Assembly: GCA_038025085.1 (NCBI GenBank)
Contig: CM076142.1
Span: 9,398,501 to 9,462,500, forward strand
Origin: Tetragonia tetragonoides
Lineage: Eukaryota > Streptophyta > Magnoliopsida > Caryophyllales > Aizoaceae
DNA: 64,000 nt
Direction: 5' to 3'
Of this stretch, positions 22,971-25,301 are shown piece by piece. Each line of letters starts with the position of its first letter. The first letter of the stretch is position 1. The notes under the pieces were generated by a model that worked only from the letters and a program-made list of their open reading frames with translations, did not search any database and was not told the DNA's origin. Position numbers and translations under genes: made by a program.

Positions 22971-23645
22971 ATGTCACCTTCCCAATCCCTCCCCATTTTC
23001 TCTCTCCTCCCCATTTTCTCTCTCCTCTTAACCCCAACTCACTCAGCCACCTGCACCTCCCCAAAACTCACAAACCCAAATCTCTACAAAACCTGCACAT
23101 CTCTCCCTTCCTTAAACTCAACCCTCCACTGGTCATACAACTCCTCAAACAAAACCCTCTCCGTCGCATTCACCGCCGCACCACCATCCCCAACCGGTTG
23201 GGTCGCATGGGGAATCAACCCAACTGCAACCGGCATGCCTGGTACCCAAGCAATCCTCGCATTCAAAGACCCAAAAGGGTCAATCTCAGTCAAAACATTT
23301 AATCTCAGCTCATATGCCGAAATAATCGAAGGGAAATTGGCATTTGAGGTGTATGAAAAAAGCGCCGAGTTCAACTCAGGAGATGGGTCTATCACGATAT
23401 TCGCGAAATTGAAGAGTGATGGTGGGAAAATTAACCAGGTTTGGCAAGTGGGCCCTGGGGTTAAAAATGGGTTCCCTGAAAAACATGATTTTAATGTGCC
23501 GAACTTGAATTCGAAAGAGAGTTTGGATTTGAGCTCTGGTAGTGCTTCACCTGATAGTTCTTCTAATGGTGGTTCATCAACGAAAAAGAGAGATGTGGGT
23601 TTTCTGATTCTTCTATTGGGTTTGTTGTTTAGTTTATGTTCTTAA
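22971..23645 (+). CDS. Alternative product by intron-1 retention: AIR12-like GPI-anchored DOMON protein
   Basis: If the weak donor at 23595 is not used, exon 1 reads on for 16 codons, VGFLILLLGLLFSLCS, then TAA at 23643-23645, giving 224 residues. The added tail has the layout of a GPI-attachment signal: small residues (SSSNGGSS) as possible omega site, a short polar spacer (TKKRD), then an uninterrupted hydrophobic stretch to the stop. The three intronless DOMON genes at 36-44 kb have exactly this architecture. What is seen is the frame and its composition; that the product exists is inference. It could also be chance, since only 16 codons are involved. Confidence 0.5.
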   Translation: MSPSQSLPIFSLLPIFSLLLTPTHSATCTSPKLTNPNLYKTCTSLPSLNSTLHWSYNSSNKTLSVAFTAAPPSPTGWVAWGINPTATGMPGTQAILAFKDPKGSISVKTFNLSSYAEIIEGKLAFEVYEKSAEFNSGDGSITIFAKLKSDGGKINQVWQVGPGVKNGFPEKHDFNVPNLNSKESLDLSSGSASPDSSSNGGSSTKKRDVGFLILLLGLLFSLCS

Positions 23646-25301
23646 GAGTAATTGTTTTTTTGGATTTTGTTTGTTTTTACTCGAATTTAAGCACTGAGTT
23701 ATCAGTTGTTGTTACAGTAATTTATTGTAGATATAACTTGTAGAAGAATTAAGAATAATTATTGGATTGGAGCTAGTTTGATTCAATGAATGATTCTCTC
23801 TCTCTCTCTCTCTCTATCTCTCCTCCCAGATCACACTTCCTGTGTCTACAGGGGTTTGGTTTGGATTGGTATGATCTGTTTGGTTACTGATGAAATGTTG
23901 TGGGTTAGATTCCAATTTTGGGAATTTCTGTTCAAATTATGTTCTTAAATCTTAATGGGTATTCTTGTATTCTGTTGTGTTGGTAAGAAATGCTGATTAA
24001 ATTGTAAATGCACACTGTAACTGGGGCTAATTCAAGTTTGGATTAGTTGAAGTTATGTTCTGTTCTGTTTGGTTACTGCAATAAACTGGATTTTGTTTCT
24101 ATTACAATTTTTATTACCCTTGAGATTTGTGTTCAGATATCAGAATATGTTCTTGGTATTTTTATGTTTTTTTAGATAAGACAGAATATGATTTTGGTTG
24201 TTGTTCCTATGTTCTATTGTAGAGAATTTGAGACTATGAACACAGTTGCACACTATAAAGTGGGGCTAGTTAGTATGAAGTCCTTACAAAGGAAATGCTT
24301 GGAAGCTGAAAATTGTAAATTTGGGTGTGTTTTTGTATGTTTAGTTGTTTATAAGATAACAAACTGTGAGGCAAATGGTGGTAGTTGGGATGTGAGAATT
24401 GACCATTTGGATTCTGTTTTTCTGTTGGTTCAGATTCACGGAATACTGAATGGCATTAGTTGGGGAATATTGTTTCCCGTTGGGGCAATCATATCGAGGT
24501 ACTTGAGGACATTCGAGTCTGCGGATCCTGCTTGGTTCTATGCACATGCTACTTGTCAAGTCTCTGCATATGCTATCGGAATCGCTGGCTGGGCTACCGG
24601 CCTTCAGCTAGGAAGTGAGTCTGAAGGGATTGTTTACACGGGGCATCGCTACATTGGCATTGCTCTGTTCACCCTGGCCACTATACAGGTAATTAAGCTC
24701 TTCAGTGCCAAACTTTTCATTTCTGTTTTTTACTAATTGTGCAAGCTAGACATGAATGTTCATCAAGAATTATGCTGTATTTGCATTAAATTTGCGTCCT
24801 TGTAGAACTTGAATTAATGTTTAAACTTCAAACCAACTTTCTAGATGCACCTTCAAGTTGTAAAATTTGGGAGATGATACCACTTCTGCTATACCTGTTC
24901 TTAAGAGTTATATTTGCAAATTCTAATCTTTATGACTTTAGAAGCCAAAGCTTGATATTGCTGCATGGTTATTGTTCTGTACCAGCACATTGGAATGGTT
25001 TTGTAATGTGTTGTTTCTTTGGATATAACAGATATTTGCATTGTTTCTAAGACCCAACAAAGACCACAAGTATCGATTTTACTGGAACATCTACCATCAT
25101 TGTATTGGATACGCCATCATCACCCTCGGAATCATCAATGTGTTCAAAGGCATACATATATTGGAACCTGAGAAGAGATGGAAGTCGACATATGTTAGCA
25201 TTCTTATCGTGCTGGGTGGCATTGTGGTGTTGCTGGAGGCTATTACCTGGTTCATAGTCTGGAAGAGGAAGTCCAGCAGGTCCACCAAGCCCTACGCATA
25301 A
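22971..25301 (+). CDS. Cytochrome b561 and DOMON domain-containing protein
   Basis: Three exons, 22971-23594, 24434-24688 and 25032-25301, all phase 0, give 382 residues, the family norm. Residues 1-25 are a signal peptide. Residues 45-175 form the DOMON (DUF568) domain, with candidate haem ligands Met89 (TGMPGTQA) and His172 (PEKHDF). The b561 core follows, with four spaced histidines: His210 (IHGILN), His246 (WFYAH), His279 (YTGHRY) and His315 (WNIYHH). A hydrophobic helix and a basic tail end the protein. Such proteins are plasma-membrane redox carriers thought to move ascorbate-derived electrons across the membrane. The ATG at 22971 is preferred over an in-frame ATG at 22743 because it opens the signal peptide and lies just after a TATA box. 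The intron 1 donor is weak (GAT|GTGGGT), but the junction KKRD-IHG matches the family. From memory At5g47530 is the closest relative. Confidence 0.9.

Follow-up and report, generated by a model that had tools for sequence, protein, structure and literature searches.

The DNA analysed here, called the window throughout, is a stretch of 64,000 nucleotides on contig C4 of the Tetragonia tetragonoides genome. It carries a CYBDOM gene, at 22971-25301, together with three AIR12-like genes (Table 1). The CYBDOMs, known from At3g25290 (CRR) and At5g35735 (HYP1), have a DOMON in exon 1, an intron, and then a b561 core. All three exons of the window gene are phase-0, and splicing at GAT/GTGGGT gives a 382-aa product of the CYBDOM type, an ordinary member of it. 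Read without splicing, the frame encodes 224 aa, comprising the whole of exon 1 and 16 further codons, VGFLILLLGLLFSLCS, followed by TAA. An original prediction had described this arrangement from the letters alone. Its exon 1 end, with frame and coordinates, was borne out, as were the 16 hydrophobic codons ahead of a stop and the joining of KKRD to IHG, which opens a b561 core with spaced histidines. The neighbouring AIR12-like genes, said to have the unspliced type of plan, indeed proved to be three single-exon genes with DUF568 and a hydrophobic C-terminus. The donor was also claimed to be weak, and we take it to be so against the plant consensus, given the T at -1 and the G at +4.

Table 1. 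Features of the CYBDOM gene and of the AIR12-like genes in the window
Feature	Position	Strand	Description
Exon 1	22971-23594	+	208 codons, phase 0; encodes a signal peptide, a DOMON/DUF568 domain (residues M89 and H172) and a linker rich in Ser, Asn and Gly, with KKRD at its end
GTGGGT splice donor, preceded by GAT	23595-23600	+	Exon-exon join matches that of spliced relatives
Intron-encoded tail, unspliced frame	23595-23642	+	16 hydrophobic residues; proposed GPI signal; helix 209-223 in model
TAA stop, unspliced frame	23643-23645	+	Retained in C3 homoeolog
Intron 1	23595-24433	+	GTGGGT...TTCAG, 839 nt, 43% T, phase 0
Exon 2	24434-24688	+	First portion of b561 core: H210, H246, H279
Intron 2	24689-25031	+	343 nt, 39% T
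Exon 3	25032-25301	+	Remaining b561 core with H315/H316, stop codon
AIR12-like gene	36404-37129	+	Single-exon, 241 aa; DUF568, hydrophobic C-terminus
AIR12-like gene	40892-41656	-	Single-exon, 254 aa; DUF568, hydrophobic C-terminus
AIR12-like gene, divergent	43497-44219	-	Single-exon, 240 aa; DUF568, hydrophobic C-terminus; end branch 1.35 in quick tree

With the Pfam models, the spliced protein scored 89.6 bits for DUF568 (cut-off 25) and 28.1 for Cytochrom_B561 (cut-off 23); the DOMON model gave 21.1 bits, which lies under its cut-off of 32.7. DUF568 and DOMON are the sole domain matches of the 224-aa frame, which is without the b561 core. The b561 histidine motifs of the window gene recur in spliced relatives, and the nearest named ones, among the matches listed, are labelled At4g12980-like and At3g25290-like (CRR type). 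A tandem duplication, LPIFSLLPIFSLL, was noticed inside the signal peptide (22971-23050).

M89 and H172 are unvarying in 40 of 40 aligned sequences. Such a Met/His pair is described as the heme ligands of the DOMON (PMC10784552), in line with general knowledge, and plasma-membrane electron transfer linked to iron(III) and ascorbate is described from work on CRR and HYP1 (PMC10784552, PMC10784544). In a structure model of the 224-aa form, each ten-residue block from 31 to 190 has a mean pLDDT of at least 89 and consists mostly of strands, forming a beta-sandwich. The linker, 192-207, is disordered in the model, and the C-terminal helix is built from the intron codons. When this fold was compared with solved structures, only dopamine beta-hydroxylase (two chains) and cellobiose dehydrogenase were found at E < 0.001, with TM-scores of 0.37-0.47; a sequence search of solved structures gave no match up to E = 1.

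The intron-encoded tail in the genome and in relatives

The first question for such a tail is what chance would provide. Because plant introns are U-rich, a phase-0 read-through tends to be made of F, L, V, I and S codons and to reach a stop early, and on one rival account, which we hold to be improbable, the tail is such a by-product, meaningless in itself, and the unspliced RNA is waste. Two counts agree with it. Among 20,000 introns simulated with the base make-up of the window gene and starting GTGGGT, a comparable tail arises in 2.4% by a strict and 8.2% by a loose criterion, and read-throughs at the same junction in other lineages have one in 4 of 43 (strict) or 6 of 43 (loose). The tail in the window gene by itself is thus hardly beyond chance; hydrophobic frames are common in U-rich introns, which makes a lone frame weak evidence.

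Copies of the gene were sought in the whole genome (752.8 Mb, 27 contigs). A homoeolog on C3 matches all 224 residues, at 94%, and has exons 2 and 3. The conservation of frame and stop in close relatives, on which the original prediction had staked its case, held in this copy: the only differences of its tail from that of the window are two Leu codons changed synonymously and an insertion of 3 nt. The probability of a random tail change being synonymous is 0.26, and elsewhere in intron 1 the two copies differ by 14 indels, of which 12 are not multiples of three. Substitutions amount to 2/51 in the tail (3.9%) and 45/747 in the intron (6.0%), and the rate in the tail is not clearly under that of the flanking intron; exon 1 itself differs at 33/624 positions, so that, taken alone, this comparison is of low power.

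A third copy, on C5 (34305500-34313500), is dead and partial. What is left of its exon 1 contains stop codons and is interrupted by an inserted segment of about 1.6 kb; some 360 nt from the start of the intron also survive, and the tail frame in them ends in FCLF and a stop. No b561 exons were found on C5, where none of the 26 genome-wide matches to exons 2-3 lies. Tail divergence in this copy is 8.3%, against 6.3-12.2% for the flanking intron. Such ordinary nucleotide divergence of the tail among the genome copies agrees with the by-product account; the 3-nt length of the C3 indel speaks against it. Downstream of the tail stop, too, the intron is rather alike in the three genome copies. As a control, a distant CYBDOM paralog on C8, with the donor AAC/GTAAGT, reads through into VSSHFYHYLE and a stop, without a comparable tail.

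The surroundings of the gene are repeated as well. Two AIR12-like matches, one open and one with an internal TAG, lie within 52 kb of the C3 homoeolog, and the cluster of CYBDOM and AIR12-like genes in the window is present again at 13342039-13394745 of C3 (L010, L013, L014, L028), as after whole-genome or segmental duplication.

Relatives were drawn from three protein searches, which gave the best 120 of 125, 927 and 684 matches; the second scored the 7985 candidates sharing most words. Among the matches listed, 47 read-through proteins were counted, including that of the window: four in the window clade and 43 elsewhere. The four from Caryophyllales are the window protein, P0003 (sugar beet), P0122 (Saponaria, Caryophyllaceae) and P0001, which was placed by trees. 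The read-through-like P0238 (tail VSFSDPALT...) stands outside the 43; the junctions of P0166 and P0107 are unclear. The odd models P0225, P0231, P0272, P0279 and P0121 were dropped, with P0025, P0042, P0212 and P0117 also dropped from the sets for the AIR12 tail consensus and the GPI-like rule, and P0187, P0284 and P0286, which had escaped the pattern, were included manually.

It was considered whether the short relatives are ordinary AIR12 genes, and this was rejected, since the best BLAST match of their exon-1 part is nearer to a CYBDOM exon 1 than to the nearest AIR12-like sequence in the set (73% against 55% identity for P0001, 74% against 57% for P0003, 67% against 47% for P0122). At the protein level, the refuting condition of the original prediction, a frame and stop that close relatives fail to keep, did not arise within the reach of protein databases: all three Caryophyllales relatives with a read-through protein have a hydrophobic in-frame tail, with the stop 17-21 codons in. 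The sample is that of relatives with a deposited short form, and spinach, quinoa, amaranth, Silene and others fall outside it. The tail starts with VG in 4/4 Caryophyllales sequences and in 3/43 others (Fisher 0.0002; 0.0013 without the window). A Gly as second intron codon means a G at donor +4; Val-Ser is found in 36 of the 43 other read-throughs. A GPI-like rule was set from 163 AIR12-like tails, under which the final 16 residues must be sufficiently hydropathic and hold no more than one charge, and a small-residue omega candidate must be present. It is passed by 153 of the 163 sequences from which it was set, by 4/4 Caryophyllales tails and by 4/43 others (Fisher 0.0004; 0.0023 without the window). 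Under a stricter tail rule the counts become 3/4 and 4/43, P0001 failing with one Arg near its end.

The order of residues past VG is likewise shared. The mean pair score of the four Caryophyllales tails is 30.8 against 17.0 +/- 1.8 for shuffled tails, and none of 5000 shuffles reaches it. Among the 43 others, 26 tails were long enough for a test of quadruples, and 0.05% of the 14,950 quadruples reach 30.8, in a pool that includes two near-duplicate pairs (P0232/P0235 and P0021/P0277, kept separate). Taken singly, two pairs do not stand out, window-Saponaria (p 0.13) and beet-Saponaria (p 0.27). Exon-1 divergence served as a yardstick for what shared ancestry would leave. At exon-1 identities of 0.55-0.70, four of five Caryophyllales pairs score 33-43 and the fifth 23; for the 289 other pairs in this range the median scores are 8-10 and none exceeds 30. 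The sixth Caryophyllales pair, at 0.52, scores 19. Tail pairs of other lineages score 5-27 at identities of 0.75-0.83, and the closest two (0.88 and 0.98) score 36 and 69. Four of the six Caryophyllales pairs thus exceed the yardstick, and for those four shared ancestry alone is therefore insufficient. Judged from these four sequences, tail conservation among Caryophyllales goes beyond chance; the order-specific likeness, together with the GPI-like character of all four tails, tells against a mere by-product.

In sugar beet, both forms are represented. The spliced fragment P0096, assigned to this species from its identity with P0003, shares 124 of 124 exon-1 residues with that read-through protein, and the two diverge exactly at the junction, into IHGILNAISWG (P0096) and VGSFILVLGLVFGLFSYLGCS with a stop (P0003). 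The database entry for P0003 is isoform B of the CYBDOM gene BVRB_005630, an identifier within the BeetSet-2 range. The BeetSet-2 gene prediction is described as drawing on 923.8 million mRNA-seq reads and SMRT cDNA and as applying filters by which intronic coverage is reduced (PMC4556409). Isoform B suggests, as a hint, that a short transcript is made in beet; an AUGUSTUS isoform falls short of proof.

One gene with two candidate outputs

The frame observation of the original prediction is confirmed, and its interpretation as a dual form is partly supported. The reading we prefer, with a probability of roughly 0.57, is that the gene has two outputs, a spliced trans-membrane CYBDOM and a GPI-anchored DOMON that would result from retention of intron 1 or from polyadenylation within it. 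In the spliced output, a secreted DOMON would be fused to the b561 membrane core, and electrons would be carried across the plasma membrane. Where intron 1 is not removed, or the transcript terminates inside it, the DOMON would instead be followed by the 16 intron-encoded hydrophobic residues, acting as a GPI signal. The long product would cross the membrane; the short one would be cleaved near SNG or NGG and receive a GPI anchor, which would place a heme DOMON on the outer leaflet in the fashion of AIR12. Both would deliver the same DOMON to the apoplast, and the weak donor, with its G at +4, would permit both outputs. We infer the GPI anchor, the regulation and the physiological role of the short form.

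If intron 1 were kept while intron 2 is spliced out, the transcript would be an expected target of nonsense-mediated decay, which counts against the two-output reading. Because a retained transcript is prone to this decay, intronic polyadenylation seems, from general knowledge, the likelier route than full retention; either would yield the identical protein.

A second rival, about as improbable as the by-product account and if anything slightly more so, assigns the signal to the RNA: the short transcript would be made but lead nowhere, its effect being to reduce CYBDOM output by regulated unproductive splicing, or else the start of the intron would be kept as an RNA element, and in either case the peptide would go unused. 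A weak donor and an early stop are consistent with unproductive splicing, as is the likeness of the three genome copies past the stop with this rival as a whole. Unproductive splicing requires, however, neither a hydrophobic peptide conserved in order nor indels of three, and the likeness between species was observed at the level of protein. The least probable rival has the short form made, yet as a single-pass membrane protein or a secreted one with no GPI anchor; KKRD directly before the hydrophobic stretch favours it, but the stretch is C-terminal with no charge after it, SNG and NGG upstream offer small-residue omega candidates, and the tail is inside the range of AIR12-like tails, from which the rule was set.

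The two-output reading has counterparts in animals. CD58 gives GPI and transmembrane forms from one gene (PMC8218816), and CD160 and NCAM are likewise reported to have both isoforms. In the animal cases an adhesion or receptor protein changes its anchor, whereas in the plant case an entire electron-transfer core would be gained or lost. For plants, the titles and abstracts of the open-licence papers listed yielded no case of a GPI-versus-transmembrane choice by splicing and no GPI form of a CYBDOM. In passages of two accounts of CYBDOMs from 2024 (PMC10784552, PMC10784544), neither a read-through nor a GPI form is mentioned, and the string 'splic' is absent from both main texts. GPI and transmembrane isoforms are already known in animals, and for CYBDOMs we found none described in these sources. 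If the two-output reading is true, one RNA-processing decision would determine whether a trans-membrane reductase or a lipid-anchored surface cytochrome is made, and electron flow at the plasma membrane could be re-routed without a new gene. It would also be a pointer to the source of AIR12, and a case, at the level of sequence, of a protein targeting signal arising from an intron.

AIR12-like neighbours and a possible origin of AIR12

AIR12 is a DOMON-only, GPI-anchored b-type cytochrome; the anchor is reported for the Arabidopsis and soybean proteins (PMC10784552). The unspliced product of the window gene has the same plan, with a Met/His DOMON, a linker and a hydrophobic C-terminus. The AIR12-likes of the window differ from it in being separate single-exon genes; the short form would come from a CYBDOM gene, whose DOMON groups with CYBDOMs. 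In the tree, the window DOMON is in a CYBDOM clade of nine rows (100/99), apart from the neighbours. The genes at 36404 and 40892 join three other AIR12-likes, one from Nepenthes included, in a separate clade (95/91), and the gene at 43497, placed in the quick tree only and on a long branch, grouped with these two. That the neighbours are recent copies of the window CYBDOM was rejected on tree position. The read-through form would, on this topology, function like AIR12 yet not descend from the AIR12 clade.

The tails carry some marks of a relation. CYBDOM exon 1 ends in a conserved DSRxKK(K/R)N (78 distinct ends), and a matrix built from these ends matches AIR12-like tails at p<0.05 in 15 of 103 cases against about 5 expected, the related sequences being non-independent. 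The best match is P0104 of Nepenthes, in which DSRMRMKN stands directly before the hydrophobic tail LGFYGLLVSAALFA; the three AIR12-likes of the window show no match (p 0.23, 0.25 and 0.89). The AIR12 tail consensus ends in SRGRGSNLGLYVGLLLLLGSLIGF, which resembles the Caryophyllales read-through. Against a profile of AIR12 tails, on which 28 of the 43 other tails were long enough to be scored, the window read-through is top of 32 with 14.1 bits, a score equalled by 6 of 200 shuffles. The corresponding shuffles number 15/200 for P0001, 46/200 for P0003 and 98/200 for P0122, and some tails of other lineages (P0290, P0153) outscore three of the four Caryophyllales tails. This tail evidence is weak, the profile test being marginal, and at most suggestive of a kinship between AIR12 tails and the CYBDOM read-through, in which the descent may run from CYBDOM to AIR12 or the other way.

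The origin that we put forward, tentatively and as the less probable side of the question, is that AIR12 genes are duplicates of CYBDOM exon 1 in which the intron-1 read-through became fixed as a GPI signal, the old donor GT supplying the first tail codon. The Caryophyllales CYBDOMs would then be a living intermediate making both forms. The partial copy on C5 shows the kind of duplication that such an origin would need. A single AIR12-like clade appeared in none of 200 bootstrap trees, and the starred branches require at least three changes; this result is limited by the 163 columns of the tree, by a bootstrap that was still unsettled and by hints of gene conversion (P0022).

In Pterospermum, Rubus, Nyssa and Orobanche, among the matches listed, adjacent locus tags pair a CYBDOM with a DOMON-only model, as in the window; the DOMON-only model of Nyssa is without a tail, and the CYBDOM model of Orobanche looks odd. 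The Pterospermum protein P0022 (Ptkin15bG0142100) combines a DOMON that groups among the CYBDOMs of Malvaceae, including that of the gene next to it in locus-tag order, with the tail of Malvaceae AIR12s. Gene conversion between tandem neighbours is a possible source of this mixture.

A few other features of the window were noted. At 48603-53647 lies an LTR retrotransposon, presumably of the Copia type, bounded by two 300-nt direct repeats that are 97% alike (48603-48902 and 53348-53647); the ORFs between them read like gag, integrase and reverse transcriptase/RNase H. A degenerate tandem array with units of about 21-22 nt spans 10069-10330, with two minus-strand frames open. Lastly, an ORF of 260 aa on the minus strand (2883-3665) encodes what we take, from its translation, to be a cysteine-rich repeat secretory protein of the DUF26 kind.
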